Shown here: positions 3,132 through 58,629 of the stretch, piece by piece | How the letters are laid out: every line of letters starts with the position of its first letter | Numbering within the stretch: the first letter of the stretch is position 1 | Origin: Bacteroidota bacterium | GTDB taxonomy: Bacteria; Bacteroidota; Bacteroidia; UKL13-3 | Assembly (NCBI GenBank): GCA_030680835.1 | Contig: JAUXUD010000086.1 | Coordinates: 62,001-126,000 of the forward strand | Reading direction: 5' to 3' | Length of the DNA stretch: 64,000 nt | Notes under the pieces: generated by a model | Database searches by the model: none | Seen by the model: only the letters and a program-made list of their open reading frames with translations | What the model was told of the DNA's origin: nothing | Made by a program: the position numbers and the translations under genes

Positions 3132-3168
3132 ATTTTTTTAGTTGAAGTTTGTTAAAGGTGATCGGATT

Positions 3169-3302
3169 GAGTTATGAGTTATGAGTTATGAGTTATGAGT
3201 TATGAGTTATGAGTTATGAGTTATGAGTTATGAGTTATGAGTTATGAATTATGAATTATGACTTATGAATTATGAATTATGAATTATGAGTTATGAGTTA
3301 TG
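3169..3302 (+). repeat. Heptamer array B (GAGTTAT)
   Basis: About nineteen 7-bp units, mostly GAGTTAT on the plus strand, decaying to GAATTAT and GACTTAT in the distal half and returning to GAGTTAT at the end. It lies upstream of the ychF start and downstream of glmM, and is antisense to both. It is the only array in the window that is not sense-oriented behind a stop codon. Confidence 0.9.
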
Positions 3303-3385: not shown

Positions 3386-3490
3386 TACATTGTACATCGT
3401 ACATCGTACATCATACATTGTACATCATACATTGTACATCGTACATTGTACATTGTACATTGTACATCGTACATCGTACATCATATATCG
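3386..3490 (-). repeat. Heptamer array C (GTACRAT), downstream of glmM
   Basis: Fifteen 7-bp units reading TACATCG, TACATTG or TACATCA on the plus strand, GTACRAT in the glmM sense. The array begins about 25 bases after the glmM stop, the largest stop-to-array gap among the sense-oriented arrays here. Confidence 0.9.
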
Positions 3491-3515
3491 TAATTTAACA
3501 TCAATGCGATTCAGA

Positions 3516-11945: not shown

Positions 11946-13283
11946 ATGAAAAAACAAATATGCATTTCAATTCTATTGGTTTTGGGAACCCTGCAGGTAT
12001 TGTTGGCACAAACCAAAACCATTTTGGATACCAAGGTTATTGGTAGTTATTGCAATAATTATTTCGACTTAAATGAAAATGGCTTCATCCTGGTTTATAA
12101 CAAGAAAAAAGATGTGGATGCAGGTATTGGTAAAAATGCCGACCTGATTAATTTTATTTATTATTTCAGCAAAGACATGTCCAAAAGAATAACGTTTAAA
12201 GTTATTTCGAATGGGGAGTTTAATATCTATGCAAGCAAGAATAATTTATTTTTGGTTGACCGGAATTCAACAGATTATTTTGTAAGAGTTTATGATTATT
12301 CAGGTAAAGAAGTAGCCAATAAAAAATTCGATCTCTCAGCGATTGGTTTGAGCCAGGGCCAGATTAGTAAAATACATTTTTCGGCTAATGGAAAAATGAT
12401 GTTTGAAGTTTATGATGGCCACCAGGAACTGCACTTATACACTATTCCACTATTAAGTCCCCATGCTGTATTGTCGGAAATTGACATTGCTTACCCCAGT
12501 GCAAATCCGCTGGAGAGCATGAATGTAAAAGGTGACTGGACTTTATTGGGTGAAACCATGGGGTATTATATTATTTGCAGGAAAGGGGCCAATTCCAATT
12601 ACGATCCCAATGCAATCGCGTACCATATTGCATTTTATGATGAAGAATTTGTATTGTTCAGGGAGTTGTTGTTAGATAATTTTCTGCTTCCCGGCGAACA
12701 AATGATGGGAAAAGATGCTGCCCTCAGTTTAAATAGCAGTTTACAAAGTTTTGTGGTATCCTGTTTAATTATGCGTAACCAAAAAAACATATTGCTGGTT
12801 GCCAATTATGGAATGGATCCTGCATCCAGTGTGATGCGTTTATTCTGGCATAAAGAGTTTGAACTGATTAATAATGCCAAGTATAAATTTGTTGAAAACG
12901 ATGGAATGTCGGTTCCTCTCCCGCCTGTTATAAGCAACCGCGGACCGCAAATAAATGTAAGTGTTTTTAAAAGTCGTACCAATGTAAATGAAGAAGCAGT
13001 GAATCAAATGGTATCATTTGATGCGCAGGGAAATAATATTTACAATAATGTTCAGATGGGAAACCTGGAAATGCTGAACCTGGACGGTTTTTGTGTTGAT
13101 AATGAAAACATGTACAGCCGCTTTAAAACCCTGCAAATGGCGCGCACCTTAAAATCTTATTGCGATTTTGACAAATGCGAAGCACTTGATATAGATATTG
13201 ACCCGAAAGGTAATGAACTGGCAATCATACGCGATGGTAAAAACAACCTGGTGACGATCTATTATTTTAAGGCAAAAAATTAA
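11946..13283 (+). CDS. Secreted protein of unknown function
   Basis: A 445-residue protein from the ATG at 11946; a TTG at 11934 is less likely. Residues 1-20 form a signal peptide ending VLLAQT. The mature part consists of repeated beta-strand stretches with Asp/Gly turns (VIGSYCNNYFDLNENG, NNLFLVDRNSTDYFVRVYDYSG), suggesting a beta-propeller-like fold, but I do not recognise a family. There is no lipobox and no clear C-terminal T9SS domain, so the final location is uncertain (periplasm or cell surface). A heptamer array follows the stop after about one base. Confidence 0.7.
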   Translation: MKKQICISILLVLGTLQVLLAQTKTILDTKVIGSYCNNYFDLNENGFILVYNKKKDVDAGIGKNADLINFIYYFSKDMSKRITFKVISNGEFNIYASKNNLFLVDRNSTDYFVRVYDYSGKEVANKKFDLSAIGLSQGQISKIHFSANGKMMFEVYDGHQELHLYTIPLLSPHAVLSEIDIAYPSANPLESMNVKGDWTLLGETMGYYIICRKGANSNYDPNAIAYHIAFYDEEFVLFRELLLDNFLLPGEQMMGKDAALSLNSSLQSFVVSCLIMRNQKNILLVANYGMDPASSVMRLFWHKEFELINNAKYKFVENDGMSVPLPPVISNRGPQINVSVFKSRTNVNEEAVNQMVSFDAQGNNIYNNVQMGNLEMLNLDGFCVDNENMYSRFKTLQMARTLKSYCDFDKCEALDIDIDPKGNELAIIRDGKNNLVTIYYFKAKN

Positions 13284-13284
13284 T

Positions 13285-13341
13285 ATACAATGTACGATGT
13301 ACAATGTACAATGTACGATGTACGATGTACGATGTACGATG
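13285..13341 (+). repeat. Heptamer array D (GTACRAT)
   Basis: About eight 7-bp units of GTACGAT and GTACAAT on the plus strand, beginning one to two bases after the stop codon of the secreted-protein gene and in its sense orientation. Confidence 0.88.
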
Positions 13342-13451
13342 TGGAATTTTGTTTGGCGTTTATAACTTTTTTACTATACGACAAAATATAATGAGGATAA
13401 CTTTTTTATTTTTATTAAACAATACATTTTGAACCTGTTAGCGAGAACATA

Positions 13452-15750: not shown

Positions 15751-15777
15751 TATCAACTTATTTCATACTTCATACTT

Positions 15778-15860
15778 CAACTCATACCTAATATCTCATA
15801 CCTAATAACTCATACCTAATAACTCATACCTAATAACTCATACCTAATAACTCATACCTC
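15778..15860 (-). repeat. 14-bp / 7-bp tandem array after the zinc protease stop
   Basis: Five to six copies of a 14-bp unit, AACTCATACCTAAT on the plus strand. In the protease sense this is two 7-mers, ATGAGTT and ATTAGGT, so it belongs to the same heptamer family as array B. The array begins five bases after the stop codon. Confidence 0.85.
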
Positions 15861-15865
15861 AAATT

Positions 15866-18421
15866 TCAATTCTCAAAAGCCTTTTCAATCTTCAACTTTA
15901 AATTAGCCAGATGTGCCCTGGTTTCATCATTTCCGGATGCACTTGTTGCCAGAGTCTTAATCTGGTTCAGTTGAGCCAGTGCAGAAGCTTGTGAAATGGC
16001 ATCATAGGCAGGTGTTTTTACCATAGCAATCATGCGTTCTACATATAATAATTGTAAGTTCTGACGAATGGTGCTTGTATTGAGTCCTTCTCCTTTAAAA
16101 CAAGCATTGGTTAAATCTGTCATCATCAACAATACTGAATAGGTATTGCCGTACATACGTGAATCTGATAATCGTTTTAAAACAACGGGATGCAACAAAT
16201 GCATCAACAAACTACGCTGATAACTTAAAACCCGCTCATGAATTTTTGGGTCTTCGTTATTGCCAAAAAATGAAAATCCCCTGCGTTGATTTTGCAGGTA
16301 TGGGTATAATTCGTTCTGAACACCAAAAGCGGTAGCGGAAAATGCATATTGTGACAGTGCCGCCATGGCTCTTTTTTGATCGGTATACGAAACCGGAGTA
16401 AACGCTTTTCCTGAACCCGGGTCACCTACAAAAGTACGGTTCACGTATATCCCGCCAATATAACGTGAAATAACATTTACGGCTGAATAAAATTCGTTTT
16501 GTGCAATGGCGTATGCCTGTCGTAATTCCTGGTAACTCTGGTTGGGTTTACTGTATTTTTCTTTAATACCTCCCATTAATTGTTTGCTTAACTGTACCCG
16601 TTCTATGCAGTATGAAATTGCATCACCACTCATATCATTAACATTTACTCTCGGGTCAATACCACCACCATAACCACGCATATCATCTGCATCATTTCCA
16701 AAAATCAGGGTGCTGTCGTTTGAACGCGACAATAATTGTTTCACTCTTGCCTGTTCTTTATCTGTATCTGCCAATCCCGGTGTGTATCCAAACTCTATTG
16801 CCCATAAATCATATGGGCCCGGACGGGTTGTAAAATAATCCCCTTGTTTTTTCGAATCCAAAGCAACATTTGCCGAAGGGTAATCCATAACCGATGCAAT
16901 TAATCCAATCTCACGGGTTAAATTTTTATTGTGGATCTGGTCAGGCTTTAACATCTGGCTGGCTTTCATATTGTGATTTAAACCCATGGTATGACCCATC
17001 TCATGCATTACCAGATAATAAATAGATTGCTTGAGGTATTCCCTTTTTTCTATTTCGCTAATCCCTTTTAATTCCAAAACCTGGCTACCAAACAAGGCAG
17101 TTTGATGGAGATAATCTACTGCATCACAATAATTATTCATTGATTTTTTTGAACCAAAATTCACAGTATTGTTTTGCATGGCTGAACCCGCATCAAAAAA
17201 TTCTTCCTGCCTGATCCGGTTGGTAATAAAAATATATTCCAGCATGATGTCGGCGCCTAAAATCTGACCCGTTCTGGGGTCGACAAAACTTGGGCCATAA
17301 CCCCCAAACGGCGGTTGCGGCGAACTGGTCCACCTGAGTACATTATAGCGGATATCACCCGCATCCCAATCTGCCGTATCGGGTTGAATTTTAACAACCA
17401 CTGCATTTTTAAAACCTGCTTTTTCAAAAGCCAGATTCCATTTTTCACCGGCTTCTTTTATGGTACTTCTGAATTCCAGGGGTGTGGTATTTTCAATCCA
17501 CCATACGATGGGCTCAACAGGTTCGGATATGGCAAGGTTCGTATCTTTTTTAACCAAATTCCAGCGATGAATCACATCCCGGTAGTCAACTGTTTTCGTT
17601 GTAGTCATATCATCCACTTCTTCCAAAAAGTATCCGATACGCGGGTCGTCAAGCCGGGGCTTGAAATTATTTATGGGCGCTTCTATCAGGGTATGCTGAA
17701 CCGTGATACTCACAGAACGTTCGTCGGTTACTTCTTTACCGCCTCCAACAGTTGGAGTTGGATTATCATATACATATTCTACAATTACATCGGTATTTTT
17801 TTCATAGTTACGTAAGGCAATAAATTTGGTTTTTTCCTTGCTCAGGCTGCCCAGATTAAACTGCATCATGCCTGCACCCGGAAATGGACTTGGCTTTATC
17901 TGTGAGAAAATTTCACTTAAAAACAAGGCACTTCCATCCAATAATATTTCACCTTTTTTTAAATCTTCTGCCACAATTTTCTGACTCACCAGTGTGGCAT
18001 TGCTGATGTTTGCATGCGCCGATTTACTGATGGGATTGGCGGGATCAAAATAAAAGCCGGTGTTTAAAACCGTAAATTCAATTTTATCGAAGTATCTTTT
18101 GATGGTAAATACTTTGTTGTCTCTGAAACTGCCTCTGAAATGACCGGCAGCCACTACCCCATCAACCGTATACGAAAAATAAATATATTCCTTGTCCAAC
18201 TGTTCCTTTTTAAGCAACAGAAATACATTCCCGCTGGCAGTATCCTGATACAAAGGAAAAAGTCCGGGCATCTTTTTACAGGGTTTAATTTTGTCGGCAA
18301 TGGTAACTTTAGCAGCACCTGCGGCTGATGTTGCTGCTCCAACAGGTTTCTTTTTAGTTTTACTGCTTGCACACCCTGCGATAATCAAAACCGGAATCAA
18401 AAGGAATATAATTTTTTTCAT
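15866..18421 (-). CDS. Zinc-dependent metalloprotease lipoprotein (DUF5117/DUF5118 type)
   Basis: An 851-residue protein. A lipoprotein signal ends with the lipobox IAGC (C17). The central zinc site is H473-E-M-G-H477-T-M-G-L-N-H483, a full metzincin HExxHxxGxxH motif. The flanking regions (a large N-terminal part with VDGVVAAGHFRG and WWIENTTPLEFRSTI, and a helical C-terminal domain) match the Bacteroidota DUF5117-zincin-like-DUF5118 proteins. It should be a membrane-anchored periplasmic or surface protease; no substrate can be named. Transcribed alone, followed by a heptamer array and a hairpin terminator. Confidence 0.88.
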   Translation of the reverse strand: MKKIIFLLIPVLIIAGCASSKTKKKPVGAATSAAGAAKVTIADKIKPCKKMPGLFPLYQDTASGNVFLLLKKEQLDKEYIYFSYTVDGVVAAGHFRGSFRDNKVFTIKRYFDKIEFTVLNTGFYFDPANPISKSAHANISNATLVSQKIVAEDLKKGEILLDGSALFLSEIFSQIKPSPFPGAGMMQFNLGSLSKEKTKFIALRNYEKNTDVIVEYVYDNPTPTVGGGKEVTDERSVSITVQHTLIEAPINNFKPRLDDPRIGYFLEEVDDMTTTKTVDYRDVIHRWNLVKKDTNLAISEPVEPIVWWIENTTPLEFRSTIKEAGEKWNLAFEKAGFKNAVVVKIQPDTADWDAGDIRYNVLRWTSSPQPPFGGYGPSFVDPRTGQILGADIMLEYIFITNRIRQEEFFDAGSAMQNNTVNFGSKKSMNNYCDAVDYLHQTALFGSQVLELKGISEIEKREYLKQSIYYLVMHEMGHTMGLNHNMKASQMLKPDQIHNKNLTREIGLIASVMDYPSANVALDSKKQGDYFTTRPGPYDLWAIEFGYTPGLADTDKEQARVKQLLSRSNDSTLIFGNDADDMRGYGGGIDPRVNVNDMSGDAISYCIERVQLSKQLMGGIKEKYSKPNQSYQELRQAYAIAQNEFYSAVNVISRYIGGIYVNRTFVGDPGSGKAFTPVSYTDQKRAMAALSQYAFSATAFGVQNELYPYLQNQRRGFSFFGNNEDPKIHERVLSYQRSLLMHLLHPVVLKRLSDSRMYGNTYSVLLMMTDLTNACFKGEGLNTSTIRQNLQLLYVERMIAMVKTPAYDAISQASALAQLNQIKTLATSASGNDETRAHLANLKLKIEKAFEN

Positions 18422-30995: not shown

Positions 30996-31100
30996 GATGT
31001 ACGATTTACAATATACGATGTACAATGTACGATGTACGATGTACGATGTACGATGTACAATGTACGATGTACGATGTACGATATACAATGTACGATGTAT
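30996..31100 (+). repeat. Heptamer array E (GTACRAT), directly after the uvrA stop
   Basis: About fifteen 7-bp units, GTACGAT/GTACAAT with a few GATTTAC and ATATACG variants, starting immediately after the TGA of uvrA and in its sense. The gap between uvrA and pyc (334 bp) holds this array, a hairpin at 31117, a second short array at 31163-31206 and no gene. Confidence 0.9.
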
Positions 31101-31140: not shown

Positions 31141-31162
31141 GAGGTTTTGATACATTTAACAT

Positions 31163-31206
31163 TTACGATGTACGATGTACGCCCCGATAGCTATCGGGGT
31201 ACGATG
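31163..31206 (+). repeat. Short heptamer array split by a palindrome
   Basis: TTACGATGTACGATGTACG is interrupted by the perfect palindrome CCCCGATAGCTATCGGGG (31182-31199) and then resumes TACGATG. TACG occurs on both sides of the palindrome, as it would after insertion of one repeat into another. The palindrome also occurs at 3348-3365. Confidence 0.85.
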
Positions 31207-34763: not shown

Positions 34764-34789
34764 ATGTTTGAGTTATGAGTTATAAGTTA
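34764..34789 (+). repeat. Short heptamer array (AGTTATG/A) directly after the pyc stop
   Basis: Directly after TAA come ATGTTTG, AGTTATG, AGTTATA, AGTTATA, i.e. three to four 7-bp units of the GAGTTAT family in the pyc sense. Confidence 0.65.
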
Positions 34790-34832
34790 TAAAAAATTCG
34801 AATTAAGTATATTGTAATACCTATTAAATAAA

Positions 34833-38057: not shown

Positions 38058-38160
38058 GGCCCTTAGCCATTGGCTCCTGGCCTTTAGCAAATTTGCTTAA
38101 AAGAAAAGCATCTGCTCATCTCTGTAAACTTTTAGCCAGAGGCCAGCGGCTAAAGGCCGG
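38058..38160. repeat. GGCCTTTAGC repeats in inverted orientation
   Basis: Block 38058-38088 is built of GGCCCTTAGCC, ATTGGCTCCT and GGCCTTTAGC; block 38131-38160 contains AGCCAGAGGCCAGC and GCTAAAGGCC. GGCCTTTAGC (38079-38088) and GCTAAAGGCC (38149-38158) are exact inverted copies. A similar stretch lies inside valS at 57262-57300. Confidence 0.75.
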
Positions 38161-38243: not shown

Positions 38244-39635
38244 ATGAGAAAAACTGTATTTATTTTATTTGTACTGTTATTTGGACCACAGCTTTATGCA
38301 CAGCAACAGGCATTTAAAATGCGCTTGTTGGCAAACTACAATGATTCCAATTTACCCAAGGTTGATATTACCGATATATGGAACGATTTAACCGGTTATT
38401 TTGAACCTATCAAAAAAAGAGAATACATTATTGCTGGAGGTACCGACAGCATTTATTTTTTTGATATTACCGGAACTTCAGAAATAAAACTACTGCGTTC
38501 GGTTTGGGGCACATCACGTATGGCACGAAACCGCGATTTTGAAACCTATAAACATTATGTTTATTGTGTGTCGGATCAATCGGGAACTTATGGTTCGCTA
38601 AAAGTATTCGATTTGCAATACCTACCCGATTCCATTCCCCTGGTATTTGAAAGTGCAATCCTGGGCTCATCAACACATACTATTTTTATTGATTCAGTGA
38701 GTGCCCGTATGTATATGTGCTCCAATACCAAACCACCCGGTCAAGTATCGGCAATGGATATTGTTTCATTAAAAAATCCGGAATTACCTGTTTTGCTGGC
38801 TGAACTTAAAGTGCCCACAGTGAATGGATTTCCATTGTTTAATATGGTACATGAAATGTACGCCCGGAATGATACTGCCTATTTAAGTTGTGGCAATGCA
38901 GGCCTGTATATTTTTGATTTAAGGGATACCGGCAATCAAACTTTGCTGGGCAGTATTAATGAATATCCCGACCGGGGTTATAACCATAGTTGCTGGCTCG
39001 ATAAAACCGGCCGATACCTGATGTTTACCGATGAAAACATGGGTCTTGATGTAAAAATATTTGATATTAAAAACATGGCTGATCCCAAATTTGTGAGTCA
39101 GTTTAACAGCAACGAAAATGCCATGCCCCACAATGCATACTGGGTGGGTGATCTGGCCTATGTTTCATCCTATCATGACGGGGTAAGAATCTATAACGTG
39201 AAAGATCCCGGCAATCCCATACAGGTAGCCTGGTATGATACACACCCCGAAACACCTGAAATATATGGAGGCTACAAAGGAGCCTGGGGCGTTTACCCAT
39301 ACCTGCCCAGTAAACGAATTATCGCAAGTGATTTAACCGGTGGAATTTTTGTATTTGAAGTGGATAGCGATTTGGTGGGATTAATACAAACTGAAAAAGC
39401 TGCTGAGATGTTTAACATGTATCCCAATCCTTCAACGGAATGGCTAACTGTTGAAAGTAGTTTTTCTGAACAAACACGATTGCAAATAATGGATTTGCAA
39501 GGTAAAGTTTGTCTTATACTAAATATTGAAAAAGGCCTCAACAAAATAGATCTGTGTGATTTGACTCAGGGTACTTATATTGTTAAAGTACAAACTTCAA
39601 ACTCTTTTGTTTATAAAAAGCTGCTTCGATGGTAG
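38244..39635 (+). CDS. LVIVD-repeat (choice-of-anchor B) protein with T9SS sorting domain, copy 1
   Basis: A 463-residue secreted protein from the ATG at 38244. The signal peptide ends QLYAQQQ. The body (about 25-380) is a beta-propeller-like region with repeated units of the form DTAYLSCGNAGLYIFDLRD, MFTDENMGLDVKIFDI and LAYVSSYHDGVRIYNV (LVIVD repeats, as in choice-of-anchor B proteins). The C-terminal 70 residues (MYPNPSTEWLTVESSF ... GTYIVKVQTSNSFVYKKLLRW) are a type A T9SS sorting domain, so it is exported to the surface. Function unknown. Its stop overlaps the start of copy 2. Confidence 0.88.
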   Translation: MRKTVFILFVLLFGPQLYAQQQAFKMRLLANYNDSNLPKVDITDIWNDLTGYFEPIKKREYIIAGGTDSIYFFDITGTSEIKLLRSVWGTSRMARNRDFETYKHYVYCVSDQSGTYGSLKVFDLQYLPDSIPLVFESAILGSSTHTIFIDSVSARMYMCSNTKPPGQVSAMDIVSLKNPELPVLLAELKVPTVNGFPLFNMVHEMYARNDTAYLSCGNAGLYIFDLRDTGNQTLLGSINEYPDRGYNHSCWLDKTGRYLMFTDENMGLDVKIFDIKNMADPKFVSQFNSNENAMPHNAYWVGDLAYVSSYHDGVRIYNVKDPGNPIQVAWYDTHPETPEIYGGYKGAWGVYPYLPSKRIIASDLTGGIFVFEVDSDLVGLIQTEKAAEMFNMYPNPSTEWLTVESSFSEQTRLQIMDLQGKVCLILNIEKGLNKIDLCDLTQGTYIVKVQTSNSFVYKKLLRW

Positions 39636-41044
39636 GTTCAAAACGAAAAGCAATCTCATTAATTTTAGTAATTATTTTATACTGTACGGGTCATACTTAT
39701 TCCCAGATTGCCCATAAAATGAAGCTGCTGGGAAATTTTAACAAACCGGATTTAACAGTTATTTCAGGCAATCAAACATGGAATGATTTAACGGGTTATT
39801 TTGACCCAAAAACACAACGTGAATATGTAATTACAGGAACTACCGACAGCATTTATTTTTTAGATATAACCAATCCGGCAAACATTAAACAAGTGGATGT
39901 TCGGTTTGGAAAATCGATTTATGCAAGGAACCGCGATTACGAAACATATAAACACTATGCATACTGCGTGTCGGATCAGGCAAGTGGAATTGGGGCATTG
40001 CAGATTTTTGATTTGCAATACCTGCCCGATTCGGTTCATAAAATTTATGAAAGCAGCAGTCTGGGTATTTTTACACATACCATACATATAGATTCAATGA
40101 GTGCCCGTTTGTATATGTGCGCAAATACCAAAACGCCGCAGCCCTTTTCTGCCATGGATATTATTTCCCTTCAGAATCCCGAACAGCCTGTATTTTTAGC
40201 AAAACTGGAAGTTCCTGTAAAACCAGGCGGTAGTCCGCTATTTGATTTAGTTCATGAAATGTATGTGCGTAACGATACCGCATACCTGAGCTGTGGAAAT
40301 GAGGGAATTTTTATTTATGACCTTCGCAATCCCGGTAAGCAATCTATAATTGGAAGCATCAATGCATATCCCGATAAAGGTTATAATCACAGCTGTGTGC
40401 TGGATAATACAGGTAAATTTATAATGTTTACGGATGAAAATGCAGGACTGGATATTAAAATATTTGATATCAATACTTTGTCGGATCCAAAATTTGTAAG
40501 TCAGTTTAACAGCAGCCCCATGGCCACCCCGCACAATGCATACTGGCATGGAGATCTGGCTTATGTTTCCTCCTACCACGATGGCGTTCGGGTGTATGAT
40601 ATTAAAGATAAATCAAACCCGGTAATGGTTGCCTGGTATGATACGCATGATACGATTGAAGATTATTTGGGGTATAAAGGATGCTGGGGAGTTTATCCTT
40701 ACCTGCCCGGCCGACGTGTTGTGGCAAGTGATATGACGTATGGAATTTTTGTATTTGAAATGGACAGTAACCTGGTAAGTATGCCTGAGTTAAAGGTTTC
40801 AAAAATTGATTTTAGGTTATTTCCCAATCCGTTTACCGGAAAAATAAAGCTTGAACTGAATCAAACAGGAATGGAACCTATTGATTTTAAAGTTTATAAC
40901 CTATGTGGCGAAATGTTATTGCATTCCCGTATTACGGAGGCTATTTTTGAAGCCGATTTAAGCAGTTTAAAAAGCGGCATCTATTTTGTGCAGTTGGCAA
41001 ATAAGAATTTTAGTCAGTTCAAAAAAATTATAAAAACGAATTAA
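39629..41044 (+). CDS. LVIVD-repeat protein with T9SS sorting domain, copy 2
   Basis: A 471-residue paralogue of the preceding protein, clearly homologous along the whole length (for example WNDLTGYF, NRDYETYKHYAYCVSDQ, DTAYLSCGN, AYVSSYHDGVRVYD). It has its own signal peptide (HTYSQIAHK) and a T9SS domain (FRLFPNPFTGKIKLEL ... GIYFVQLANKNFSQFKKII). Its ATG lies seven bases inside the end of copy 1, so the two are translationally coupled. They are likely products of an old tandem duplication. Confidence 0.88.
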   Translation: MVGSKRKAISLILVIILYCTGHTYSQIAHKMKLLGNFNKPDLTVISGNQTWNDLTGYFDPKTQREYVITGTTDSIYFLDITNPANIKQVDVRFGKSIYARNRDYETYKHYAYCVSDQASGIGALQIFDLQYLPDSVHKIYESSSLGIFTHTIHIDSMSARLYMCANTKTPQPFSAMDIISLQNPEQPVFLAKLEVPVKPGGSPLFDLVHEMYVRNDTAYLSCGNEGIFIYDLRNPGKQSIIGSINAYPDKGYNHSCVLDNTGKFIMFTDENAGLDIKIFDINTLSDPKFVSQFNSSPMATPHNAYWHGDLAYVSSYHDGVRVYDIKDKSNPVMVAWYDTHDTIEDYLGYKGCWGVYPYLPGRRVVASDMTYGIFVFEMDSNLVSMPELKVSKIDFRLFPNPFTGKIKLELNQTGMEPIDFKVYNLCGEMLLHSRITEAIFEADLSSLKSGIYFVQLANKNFSQFKKIIKTN

Positions 41045-41049
41045 TCCAG

Positions 41050-42933
41050 GTGCAACAAAATAAAATCCATTTATTAGTATACATTTTGCTGGTGTCGGCA
41101 AAATTTATTGCTGCACAAAGCGATTCAATTGCTGCGCTTAAATACCCTACCCGATTTATTACAGAGCATGATTTAGACAGAAACCAGAAATGGCATTTTA
41201 TAGATACCGCTATCAATAAAGATGAGAACTACCAACACTTATATAAGAAATACGGCATTTATCAGGACCTGGGTAATGTAGGAACACCCGGAACAAATAT
41301 GTTTTTTGATCCCGGCAGAGCAAACGATTTCAGACTTGGGTTCAACCCGTATAAAGCATATTATAAAACCCCGAAGGAAACCCGTTATTATACCACCCGC
41401 ATTCCTTATGCCGATTTGAGTTATACGCAGGGGATAATGGAACTTTTGATGCTGAATGTTAAGTTTTCGGTGAATGTTACTCCCCGCTTAAATATTGGCG
41501 TTGATTACGACCGCGTAACTTCCATGGGTTTTTACCCCCGGCAGTATACCAGTGGTTATTTCACCAATATATATTCAAGCTACCAAAGTAAAAACAATCG
41601 GTACGGACTGCTTGCAAATTTAAATTTTAACCGGGGTGTGCTCGATGAAAGCGGAGGCATCAGAAGTGATTCCCTGTTTGAAACCCTGAGGGGAACCAAT
41701 AAAGCAATTTCTGTAGTGCTTGAAAACAGTCAGAGTCGTTTTAAAAACATGAGCTTTTATACCCGGCAATATTTTTATCTGGGAAAAAGCAATGAGGTGA
41801 TCAAGGGAGATGATACCAGCTATATACTTTCTCAAACGGGATTTATTTCCCATACACTAAGCTATGATTACGATCGGTTTTTCTTTGACAACCCGGCCGG
41901 AGATACAAGCATTGTACTTTTTCCAACAAAGAATTTTGATACCTTAAATGTATTTTATGATTCGATATACAGCAAGACCCTGATGAATCGTTTTGCCTAT
42001 GCATACTGGACAAAAAGCAATGAGCATCAGCAAAGCTTTATTGAGTTTGCGATTGCGCATAAATATATAGAAGTACATCAATATGATTTAACCCATACAT
42101 ACAACAATATATGGGGTGAAGCCAATATGGAACGGATTGCCAAAACCCAAAACAACCTGGGCTTAAAATTACATGGCTCGTATTGTATGAGTGGTTATAA
42201 CCAAAACGATTTTAAAGCTTCGGGAGAATTAAAATTGCTGACACCTATTTTCGATTTAACAGGCAGTATCGGCAACCAATTATATACCCCCGATTATACA
42301 CAGGTTTATTACCGCTCGAATCCATTTGTATGGAATAACCGCTTCTCTAAAATTGTTGTCAATAATTGGGGAGCTGGAATTATTACGCGGGGTTTCAGGA
42401 ATAATTTCAGATTTAATTTTACACAGTATCTCATTTCAAACTGGGTTTATAACAGCTTATCGGTAAACCCGGTTCAAAGCAATCAATTATTGCTTGTTCA
42501 TACGCTGGAAGCAGAAAAAACCTTTCAGGCCTGGTTATTCTATTTTGAAAACCGTTTGATATATCAAAAAGCAAATCTGGATATTATCCGCATGCCTGAG
42601 TTCTCGGCTATACTGCGATATTATTTAAAAGCTTCTTTGTTTAAAAAAGCATTGTTATTTGAAATTGGGGGTGAGTTGTTTTATAATACAGCCTATTATG
42701 GCAATGCCTACAATCCATCGGCAAGGGTATTTTATCTGCAAAACCAAAAGGAGATTGGTAATTATCCGATGGTAAATGCATTTATTACCGGGCAAATAAA
42801 AAAGGCAATTATTTTTGCCAAATTCGAACACGTTAATATGGATATGAAAAATACGGGATTTTATTATACTCCCGGATATCCGCTACCCATAAGGGCTTTC
42901 AGGATTGGAATCAGGTGGCGGATGTATAACTGA
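41050..42933 (+). CDS. Putative outer-membrane porin (Porin_10 type)
   Basis: A 627-residue protein starting at a GTG five bases after the previous stop. The signal peptide ends KFIAAQS. The region NVTPRLNIGVDYDRVTSMGFYPRQYTSG and later strands (SQSRFKNMSFYTRQYF, FRNNFRFNFTQYL) match the Bacteroidota Porin_10 family as I recall it, and the end IRAFRIGIRWRMYN is a typical final barrel strand. Its position behind two T9SS cargo genes suggests one surface-associated operon. Confidence 0.78.
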   Translation: MQQNKIHLLVYILLVSAKFIAAQSDSIAALKYPTRFITEHDLDRNQKWHFIDTAINKDENYQHLYKKYGIYQDLGNVGTPGTNMFFDPGRANDFRLGFNPYKAYYKTPKETRYYTTRIPYADLSYTQGIMELLMLNVKFSVNVTPRLNIGVDYDRVTSMGFYPRQYTSGYFTNIYSSYQSKNNRYGLLANLNFNRGVLDESGGIRSDSLFETLRGTNKAISVVLENSQSRFKNMSFYTRQYFYLGKSNEVIKGDDTSYILSQTGFISHTLSYDYDRFFFDNPAGDTSIVLFPTKNFDTLNVFYDSIYSKTLMNRFAYAYWTKSNEHQQSFIEFAIAHKYIEVHQYDLTHTYNNIWGEANMERIAKTQNNLGLKLHGSYCMSGYNQNDFKASGELKLLTPIFDLTGSIGNQLYTPDYTQVYYRSNPFVWNNRFSKIVVNNWGAGIITRGFRNNFRFNFTQYLISNWVYNSLSVNPVQSNQLLLVHTLEAEKTFQAWLFYFENRLIYQKANLDIIRMPEFSAILRYYLKASLFKKALLFEIGGELFYNTAYYGNAYNPSARVFYLQNQKEIGNYPMVNAFITGQIKKAIIFAKFEHVNMDMKNTGFYYTPGYPLPIRAFRIGIRWRMYN

Positions 42934-43015
42934 TGTACAATGTACGATGTACGATGTACGATGTACAATGTACAATGTACGATGTACAATACATGATGTA
43001 AGATGTATGTACGAT
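42934..43015 (+). repeat. Heptamer array F (GTACRAT) abutting the porin stop
   Basis: About eleven 7-bp units in the porin sense. The stop codon TGA overlaps the first unit: the final A is also the first A of TGATGTACAAT. The last units decay to ACATGAT and AAGATGT. Confidence 0.88.
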
Positions 43016-46212: not shown

Positions 46213-46331
46213 AATGTACGATGTACGATGTACGATGTATGATGTACGATGTATGATGTACGATGTATGATGTACGATGTATGATGTACGATGTACGATG
46301 TACGATGTATGATGCACGATGTACGATGTAA
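46213..46331 (+). repeat. Heptamer array G (GTACRAT / GTATGAT)
   Basis: About seventeen 7-bp units, alternating GTACGAT and GTATGAT, starting two bases after the GH92 stop and in its sense. The 304-bp gap up to the DUF3788 gene holds this array, a palindrome-like stretch (CTTGCCTTCCGTAGC...GAGGGCAGG, 46333-46362) and the AT-rich upstream region of nothing else; no gene is seen. Confidence 0.9.
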
Positions 46332-52151: not shown

Positions 52152-52266
52152 CTTGTAAGTTTAGTGAAATAAATTTAAATTAATATGCATTTTTTTATTT
52201 TATTTTCACTATTTATATTCATTATTAATAGTTAAATTCAATACATATCTAAACTAATTATTGTGG

Positions 52267-52301
52267 AACACCAAACAGGGCGGATGCAATCCGCCCCTAC
52301 C
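52267..52301. repeat. Dispersed hairpin repeat, copy 2
   Basis: Second copy of the 35-bp block at 1894-1928, one base different. The stem GGGCGGAT (52278-52285) and ATCCGCCC (52289-52296) enclose GCA. Confidence 0.8.
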
Positions 52302-55959: not shown

Positions 55960-58629
55960 CTACAAAGACCCTAAACTCCCCTTTAAAGCCAAAATCTTCT
56001 GCAAGGCATCCGCTTGTTTCTGCCTTTCCTTTTCAACCAACTCAGGTTTGGCATTGGCCATAAATTTTTCATTGCCCAGCTTCGCATCAACCGATTTCAA
56101 AAAGCCGTCCAGATATTCAATTTCCTTAGTAATCTTTTCTTTCTCAGCACCGGCATCCATTTGCAGATTCAGTACCACATATATTTCATCTATATCAACA
56201 GGTAACAAAATTGCATGCTCAACTTTTTCTTTAACAAATGTAATTGCTGAAACATTAGCCAGCTTTTGAATCAGGAACATATAGGGTTTGTAGAGATTTT
56301 CACTGTTGGCTTTAATGAATATTTCAAAAGACTCTTTCGGACTTAAACCCTTTGCATTACGCAGGTTTCTGATTTGTTGTATGCTTTCAAAAACGCGTGA
56401 TAAATCAGGTGTAGGCAAATCTGAAACCAATTTTATTTCAGGATATTTTTCAATACAAATACTCTCACCCTGTTTGCGTTCAGCCATATTTTGCCAAATT
56501 TCTTCGGTGATAAAAGGCATAAACGGATGCAATACTTTCATCAGTTCTTCAAAGAAAATTACGGTTTGCTTATAAGTACTTTCATCGATAGGTTCACCAT
56601 AAACCGGTTTTATCATTTCGAGGTACCAGGCACAATAATCATCCCAAATGAGCTTGTAAATACTCATCAAAGCTTCGCTTAAACGATAGTCTTTAAATTT
56701 ATCTTCTGTTTCAATCAAAATGGCATTAAACCTTCCTTTGAACCAATCGATACTTATAGCATTTGCCTTTAAAATATCATCATTAAAAGCACTATCCGGT
56801 TTCACTTCCCAACCGTTTATCAACCTGTAGGCATTCCATATTTTATTGGCAAAATTACGGCCCTGTTCTACCATGCTTTCATCAAACAAAATATCATTAC
56901 CTGCCGGTGAACAAATCAACATGCCCATTCGCACGCCATCGGCACCAAACTTTTCAATCAAATCCAAAGGGTCAGGTGAATTGCCCAATGATTTACTCAT
57001 TTTACGCCGCTGTTTATCACGTACAATGCCAGTATAATACACGTTGCTGAATGGCTTCTCTCCCCTAAATTCGTAACCTGCCATAATCATGCGGGCAACC
57101 CAAAAAAACAATATCTCAGGTGCTGTTACCAGGTCTTGCGTAGGATAAAAATACTTGATATCGGCATTGTCTTTATCTTTAAAACCATCAAAAACAGATA
57201 TCGGCCATAACCAGGAACTAAACCAGGTGTCCAGTACGTCTTCATCCTGGTGGAGGTCTTCTGGCTTTTGGCCTTTAGCCTTTAGCCCTTGGCCATTAGC
57301 TATTTCTATTGCTTGCCGTGCGGTTTTTGCAACTGCAACAAGATTTCCTTCGTTGTCATACCAGGCGGGAATGCGTTGGCCCCACCAAAGCTGACGGCTG
57401 ATGCACCAGTCTTTGATGTTTTCGATCCAATGCCTGTATGTGTTTTTCATTTTGGCGGGATGAAATTGAATTTCATCGTTCATCACTGCATCCAAAACCT
57501 GTGGATTCCGTTCCATGAATTTTTTCATATCCACCCACCACTGCAAACTCAAACGGGGTTCAATTACTGCTCCGGTTCTTTCGCTGGTACCAATCTGATT
57601 TTTGTATTCTTCCACCTTTAAAATATGCCCTGCTTCTTCCAGATCAATAGCAATTTGTTTGCGCACGGCAAAACGGTCTTTACCAATATAACGCGTATCT
57701 TCTGCATGCTCATTTAAAAAGCCTTCTTCAGTTAAAATATCAATTACAGGCAACTTGTATTTTTGTCCCAAGGCATAATCATTTACGTCATGCGCAGGAG
57801 TAACCTTGAGGCAACCGGTACCGAATTCCATGTCAACATATTCATCGGCAATAACCGGAATTTCTCGTTTGATAAATGGAACCAAAGCTTTCTTTCCAAC
57901 CAGGTGTTTAAAACGTTCATCATTGGGGTTTACGCAAATGGCAACATCTGCCAAAATGGTTTCGGGACGGGTAGTAGCAATCGTAATAAACTGCCCTGTA
58001 TCGTCGGCCAAAAAGTATTTAATATAATACAATTTCGAATTTACTTCTTTATGAATTACTTCTTCGTCGCTCACCGCGGTTTTACCTTGCGGGTCCCAGT
58101 TTACCATTCGCAATCCGCGGTAGATCAATCCTTTTTTATGCAGGTCAATAAACACATCAATAACCGCTTCACTCAAGCTGGGTTCAAGTGTAAAACGGGT
58201 TCGGTCCCAATCGCAACTTGCTCCCAATTTTTTAAGCTGATCCAAAATAATGCCGCCGTATTTTTCTTTCCACTCCCAGGCATAACTCAAAAATTCATCG
58301 CGGCTCAGGTCCGATTTTTTAATACCTCTTTCGCGTAACATCTGCACCACTTTGGCTTCGGTTGCAATCGATGCATGATCGGTACCCGGCACCCAGCATG
58401 CATTTTTACCCTGCATCCGAGCCCTTCTCACCAATATATCCTGAATGGTATTGTTAAGCATATGGCCCATATGCAAAACACCCGTAACATTTGGTGGAGG
58501 AATCACAATGGTATAAGGTTCTTTTTCTGAACCCGAATCCGCATGAAAAAACTTCTGCTCCAGCCAATAGCTGTACCACTTATCTTCAAATGCCTGCGGT
58601 GTATATGTTTTTGACAATTCTTTGTTCAT
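55960..58629 (-). CDS. valS: Valyl-tRNA synthetase
   Basis: An 889-residue class I synthetase. HIGH motif as HMGH (53-56) in PPPNVTGVLHMGHMLN; KMSKS at 543-547; editing domain with GTGCLKVTPAHDVND; a C-terminal coiled-coil arm (about 820-889) as in other ValRS. The stretch ANGQGLKAKGQKP (about 444-456), just before EDLHQDEDVLDTWFSS, is encoded by DNA similar to the intergenic GGCTAAAGGCC repeats and looks like an inserted segment. The protein is otherwise standard. Confidence 0.96.
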   Translation of the reverse strand: MNKELSKTYTPQAFEDKWYSYWLEQKFFHADSGSEKEPYTIVIPPPNVTGVLHMGHMLNNTIQDILVRRARMQGKNACWVPGTDHASIATEAKVVQMLRERGIKKSDLSRDEFLSYAWEWKEKYGGIILDQLKKLGASCDWDRTRFTLEPSLSEAVIDVFIDLHKKGLIYRGLRMVNWDPQGKTAVSDEEVIHKEVNSKLYYIKYFLADDTGQFITIATTRPETILADVAICVNPNDERFKHLVGKKALVPFIKREIPVIADEYVDMEFGTGCLKVTPAHDVNDYALGQKYKLPVIDILTEEGFLNEHAEDTRYIGKDRFAVRKQIAIDLEEAGHILKVEEYKNQIGTSERTGAVIEPRLSLQWWVDMKKFMERNPQVLDAVMNDEIQFHPAKMKNTYRHWIENIKDWCISRQLWWGQRIPAWYDNEGNLVAVAKTARQAIEIANGQGLKAKGQKPEDLHQDEDVLDTWFSSWLWPISVFDGFKDKDNADIKYFYPTQDLVTAPEILFFWVARMIMAGYEFRGEKPFSNVYYTGIVRDKQRRKMSKSLGNSPDPLDLIEKFGADGVRMGMLICSPAGNDILFDESMVEQGRNFANKIWNAYRLINGWEVKPDSAFNDDILKANAISIDWFKGRFNAILIETEDKFKDYRLSEALMSIYKLIWDDYCAWYLEMIKPVYGEPIDESTYKQTVIFFEELMKVLHPFMPFITEEIWQNMAERKQGESICIEKYPEIKLVSDLPTPDLSRVFESIQQIRNLRNAKGLSPKESFEIFIKANSENLYKPYMFLIQKLANVSAITFVKEKVEHAILLPVDIDEIYVVLNLQMDAGAEKEKITKEIEYLDGFLKSVDAKLGNEKFMANAKPELVEKERQKQADALQKILALKGSLGSL

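Follow-up and report, generated by a model that had tools for sequence, protein, structure and literature searches.

Tandem arrays of heptanucleotides have been reported in several bacterial groups, and those so far described lie mostly between genes. In the accessible text of these reports, TAACTGA arrays occur in Beggiatoaceae, Cyanobacteria and five Bacteroidetes (PMC4679880), and arrays of GGGAATC and GGGGA(T/C)T in Xanthomonas and Nostoc (PMC4692102). A few TAACTGA sets are placed within open reading frames in that part of the TAACTGA report, including one close to the end of purC in one of the Bacteroidetes (PMC4679880). The arrays described here, one of which lies in the valyl-tRNA synthetase gene (valS) of a Bacteroidota bacterium, are like the known ones in their period of 7, their degenerate units, their large number per genome and their mostly intergenic position, as far as the available portions of both reports go (PMC4679880, PMC4692102). 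In the same portions, however, one word dominates and in-gene sets sit mostly at protein ends (PMC4679880, PMC4692102), whereas here the words are many and arrays turn up again and again in the same internal loops of ValRS, LeuRS, IleRS and PolA. The valS unit, GCYARNR, differs from TAACTGA and the array does not belong to that family. The palindromic elements of Rickettsia, from what is accessible of their description, share with the valS case that repeat DNA lies in frame inside unrelated housekeeping genes, but they are palindromic, about 150 bp long and lengthen the protein (PMC10969869), while the valS array consists of short tandem heptamers, is not palindromic and brings no net gain. 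The tandem repeats of Borgs are likewise fast-evolving, of independent origins and in some cases within proteins; as the available part of that report has it, Borgs are extrachromosomal archaeal elements in which such repeats make new disordered regions (PMC9879509), whereas here the host is a structured housekeeping enzyme, one of whose loops is occupied by a fixed 7-base unit. Heptamer arrays are already known, but the literature searched, which was mostly without subscription journals, yielded no account of such arrays recurring in homologous loops of essential enzymes.

The window, that is the whole stretch of 64,000 nucleotides analysed, carries valS on its minus strand together with an inverted pair of related intergenic repeats:

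55960..58629, minus strand: valS, valyl-tRNA synthetase, 889 amino acids (open reading frame)
57241..57357, minus strand: variable loop, site A, residues 425-463, between IPAWY and DVLDTW, 39 residues in the window copy
57262..57300, minus strand: GCYARNR heptamer array in site A, residues 444-456 (TRF period 7, pattern matches, synonymous recoding)
57988..58011, minus strand: site B, hairpin turn, residues 207-214 (nine other orthologs with heptamer arrays at or near it)
38058..38088, minus strand: intergenic GCYARNR array, left arm of the inverted pair (pattern match, fold)
38135..38158, plus strand: intergenic GCYARNR array, right arm of the inverted pair (pattern match, fold)

The best solved relative of the window ValRS was 1gax (E 1.9e-185), which we take to be the Thermus ValRS entry, and valS was present in 60 of 60 relatives searched. 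In the structure model, site A runs through a helix (437-446) into coil (447-455), and the turn of site B is flanked by strands 191-207 and 214-219. The minus strand of 57262-57300 codes for ANGQGLKAKGQKP, immediately upstream of QDEDVLDTWFSS in ValRS. TRF reported 57267-57300 as a period-7 array with the consensus TTTAGCC and 4.9 copies, and the units, GCTAATG, GCCAAGG, GCTAAAG and GCTAAAG, match GCYARNR at 24/24 scored positions. The 7-base units run head to tail beyond chance, which makes the segment a short tandem array of the heptanucleotide GCYARNR. With a pattern of three GCYARNR units plus GCY, the window holds six matches against 0.00 expected (mean of 100 shuffles); valS and the region 38058-38158 have three each. 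These heptamer matches show that the likeness of the valS segment to the intergenic repeats is real and that the heptamer is its basis; the initial annotation, which had recognized an intergenic-type repeat in valS and left the period of 7 unnamed, was right that both are of one family. The intergenic pair at 38058-38158 folds at -45 kcal/mol (z -2.95) with one mismatch every seventh base, while the valS array has a single orientation. Inverted intergenic GCYARNR pairs with a minus arm followed by a plus arm were also seen at L121 5018-5118 and at G003:C202:136310-136476.

The length of site A was compared in 119 of 120 orthologs, as L203 is without the loop; the truncated L202 was counted among the array-free loops. 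The median was 35.5 residues with an array (n=26) and 36 without (n=93; p 0.57), and 20/26 and 73/93 loops, respectively, were 32-38 residues long. These similar lengths show that the array sits in a normal variable loop and adds nothing to it, which rules out a net insertion of 13 codons. Such an insertion had been proposed in the initial annotation; repeat DNA of the intergenic family does lie in frame in an essential gene, but the net gain does not hold. The expectation of fewer residues at this place was only weakly right, as the window's own loop has 39 residues against 32-38 in 93/119 orthologs having the loop. A similar-length segment of unrelated DNA in close relatives had been named as evidence against an insertion: the lengths are indeed similar, but relatives of the genus carry GCYARNR, and site A DNA of relatives overall is GCYARNR (genus), other heptamers, or sequence with no detectable array.

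The ValS genes of 124 loci were located by BLAST, and removal of four near-identical loci left 120 non-redundant orthologs. Self-identity at a shift of 7 was highest along valS at residues 447-455, and the share of orthologs whose identity over 28 bases was 0.7 or more peaked at 13.4% near residue 453. The same loop gave a peak at shift 14 (7.1% of orthologs), while no ortholog passed the threshold anywhere in valS at shifts 4, 5, 8, 9, 10, 11 and 13, and at most 0.9% did so at shifts 6 and 12. By a 24-base period-7 score, 26/120 site A loops reached 17/24, and 0/120 did so at control shifts 4, 5, 8, 10, 11 and 13. Nine of the passing loops belong to the window's genus and have five majority words, all of them forms of GCYARNR; the 17 outside the genus have 15 words, e.g. 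AAATTCG, AAAATCC, AAACTCC, AAAGTTC and ACGACTC. The restriction of the repeat to a single lineage, expected in the initial annotation, was thus not borne out. Outside site A, ValS gave ten more passes, and nine of these lie at or near the site B turn, at offsets of 591-652 bases (about residues 200-217); at site B of the window's own valS no heptamer array was seen. FastTree was run on 118 rows, with L202 and L203 left out as truncated and both loops masked; on the resulting tree the 26 array rows require 22 changes, 17 of them forced by strong branches, against a shuffled mean of about 23.8. The arrays are scattered over the tree, though the fixed threshold inflates the number of changes, and array formation or renewal at site A seems to have recurred many times.

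Chance, or a low-complexity peptide imitating a repeat, is hardly credible as an explanation of this pattern. Peptides rich in K, Q and N do yield some self-similarity, and the score of L213 is reached by recoding alone (p 0.64), but the shuffles predicted no matches, the control shifts gave none in the 120 orthologs and a 7-base period does not fit a whole number of codons. Synonymous recoding was exceeded by 25/26 passing loops at p < 0.05 and by 19 at p < 0.01, the exception being L016 (p 0.09). For the window's own loop, recoding equalled the 24/24 fit with p 0.0005, the lowest value that 2000 draws allow, and for this array a chance origin was refuted by control shifts, recoding and shuffles together. 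No clear purine/pyrimidine grammar common to the words was seen in 42 arrays with 23 words. In the stop-prone phase the units have 17 C and 0 T, in the other phases 21 C and 14 T; this lack of T is what any intact frame demands and is no independent evidence.

A single ancient array, inherited, drifting apart and decayed in the lineages that now have none, is quite unlikely. The close pairs L023/L204, L009/L011 and L017/L019 do have the same array by descent, with few changes, and similar peptides occur in some related lineages, e.g. L029, L094, L213 and L214. However, the window's valS agrees with 15 other orthologs of the genus at only 0.27-0.39 of fourfold sites while its loop fits GCYARNR at 24/24, and drift of this extent should erase the period; words are also outright different between families. 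Over the part covered by L026, L004 and L026 are identical at 98% of residues and at 93% of fourfold sites, with wholly different loops, and many of their differences are clustered in about 115 bp. This pattern resembles the trace that a short recombination tract would leave, and the replacement could have been an import from another species instead of slippage. In a comparison of L003 with L006 and L009, the ValRS loop of G001 was like that of G007, while the remaining gene grouped with G004 and G015, which would fit an exchange of the loop between species.

In 462 kb sampled from the window's own genome (the window and 20 other stretches), 31 period-7 arrays were found, while every other period in the range 4-15 gave 0-5. 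They have many words, including TACATCG, TGAGTTA, AAGTATG and AATCGGT. The whole genome gave 29 GCYARNR hits, or 17 arrays after collapsing, with 3 hits for a reversed-pattern control, and the valS array alone lies within an open frame of at least 150 codons. The GCYARNR family was present in 29/60 genomes, namely 19/19 of the genus, counting the window's own, and 10 outside it; the reversed control gave 1-3 hits each in 4/60 genomes. The loop words of four genomes outside the genus were searched as patterns in the same 60 genomes. The G034 word was found within G034 at valS only, and also in three other genomes; the G020 word at G020 valS only; the G050 word at G050 valS, at one more site in that genome and once in G033. 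The G045 word had no exact match in G045, its own valS included, but 20 hits in G041, whose valS has another word. The loop word was thus private, or nearly so, to valS in three of the four genomes, in a test that is weak because exact patterns overlook diverged arrays, as the G045 word demonstrates. When loop words were compared with the other arrays of the same genome in sampled DNA, which is underpowered for this, 25/27 rows had no cluster of their own. Recurrence of the word in other arrays of the same genome holds for the window's genome but is not general. In G025, the words differ between two ValS sites, IleRS and two PolA sites.

These near-private words, together with the several words of G025, favour formation of arrays in place over the spread of one element. 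A dispersed or mobile intergenic repeat, by which a GCYARNR array was copied into valS from elsewhere in the genome with the frame kept, could draw on the 17 arrays of the own genome, on the presence of the family in every genome of the genus and on the intergenic pair of the window having the same word as valS. The genus-wide occurrence of GCYARNR does make copying possible inside the window's genus. Against it stand the loop length without net gain, the private or nearly private words in three of the four non-genus genomes and the different words in the genes of a single genome, and we regard this origin as unlikely. Another reading is that the heptamer is retained in valS as a DNA or RNA signal, e.g. 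a protein-binding or regulatory site. In its favour, 13/16 loops of the genus keep the word beyond what the peptide needs (p < 0.05 against synonymous recoding; L003, L010 and L026 do not). But lineages differ in their word, arrays occur in other genes as well and the RNA fold of the valS array is not above shuffles (z -0.29), which makes a signal very improbable.

A sample of 2.79 Mb of DNA (144 stretches) contained 27 arrays in open reading frames of at least 150 amino acids and 144 arrays outside them; among shifts that are not multiples of 7, the next best was shift 8, with 5 and 24. ValS holds 17/27 of the in-frame arrays and is over-represented in this sample because most loci were obtained through ValS. 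The other ten include LeuRS, two IleRS and four near N-termini; two more of the ten are in what are, judging by motif, presumably MetRS-like and MnmD-like proteins. The contigs of L216, L217 and L219 were chosen for cross-hits of the ValS search, so their share of synthetases is biased. Among the best-matching loci for each gene, arrays were found in ValS at 16/30, PolA at 5/30, LeuRS at 4/30 (one of the four upstream of the likely start) and IleRS at 1/29, or 3/31 once two loci picked earlier are added; GyrB had none in 30. The control shifts combined gave 0 to 3 passes per gene set. PolA, chosen as a negative control, itself carried arrays. In LeuRS, L318 and L328 have different words in one loop, and in PolA, L267, L272 and L277 share a loop position with different words. 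Some assemblies look as if broken by arrays: contigs G036:C336 (L202) and G017:C234 (L203) stop within the ValRS loop or next to it, and the PolA of both G002 and G010 falls on two contigs, with the break near residues 292-325.

The pattern is real and well supported and is wider than the initial annotation had it, and the mechanism proposed here is probable. The constant loop length, the near-private words and the scattered, varied words lead us to lean towards slippage of period 7 in place, in a surface loop that tolerates it, accompanied by short recombination, rather than towards a mobile repeat that inserted there. Bacteroidia genomes generate period-7 arrays of many unrelated words; most are intergenic, and a few survive in genes, where the frame is open and a loop accepts almost any sequence. 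The data establish what the arrays are and where they lie, that they recur at homologous loops with varied words and that loop length is unchanged. We infer that slippage in place, or template switching, in steps of 7 bases creates the array, that selection would trim the loop back to its usual length and that short recombination may now and then swap the loop. Slippage does not by itself explain why GCYARNR is found in 19/19 genomes of the genus, and the words shared with other genomes, the arrays inherited in close pairs and the p value of L016 also speak against slippage in place. A broader proposal, that a Bacteroidia process with a 7-base step in replication or repair overwrites tolerant loops of essential enzymes with locus-specific heptamers, without net change in length and as a steady source of loop sequence, is tentative and at present somewhat doubtful. 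That unrelated heptamers fill the same essential-enzyme loop across lineages suggests a mutational process of fixed 7-base step that can be read in proteins. ValRS loops may then serve as natural recorders of this process, and the old question of the bacterial preference for 7-base repeats becomes testable. Such loops misguide alignments and may break metagenome assemblies.

The window has ten further period-7 arrays, at 1957-2045, 3168-3302, 3386-3492, 13282-13342, 15759-15876, 30996-31099, 31152-31181, 34769-34792, 42933-42990 and 46214-46330. Their words are TACATTG/TACATCG, TGAGTTA and a mixture of CTCATAC and CTAATAA, and none lies within a long open reading frame. A 46-bp repeat, 91% alike, occurs at 1883-1928 and 52256-52301 and holds a AACAGGGCGGATGCAATCCGCCC-like inverted sequence; a heptamer array adjoins the first site. 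The region 38378-40776 contains a diverged pair of copies, perhaps duplicated genes, which lie about 1400 bp from each other and are 70-82% alike in pieces.
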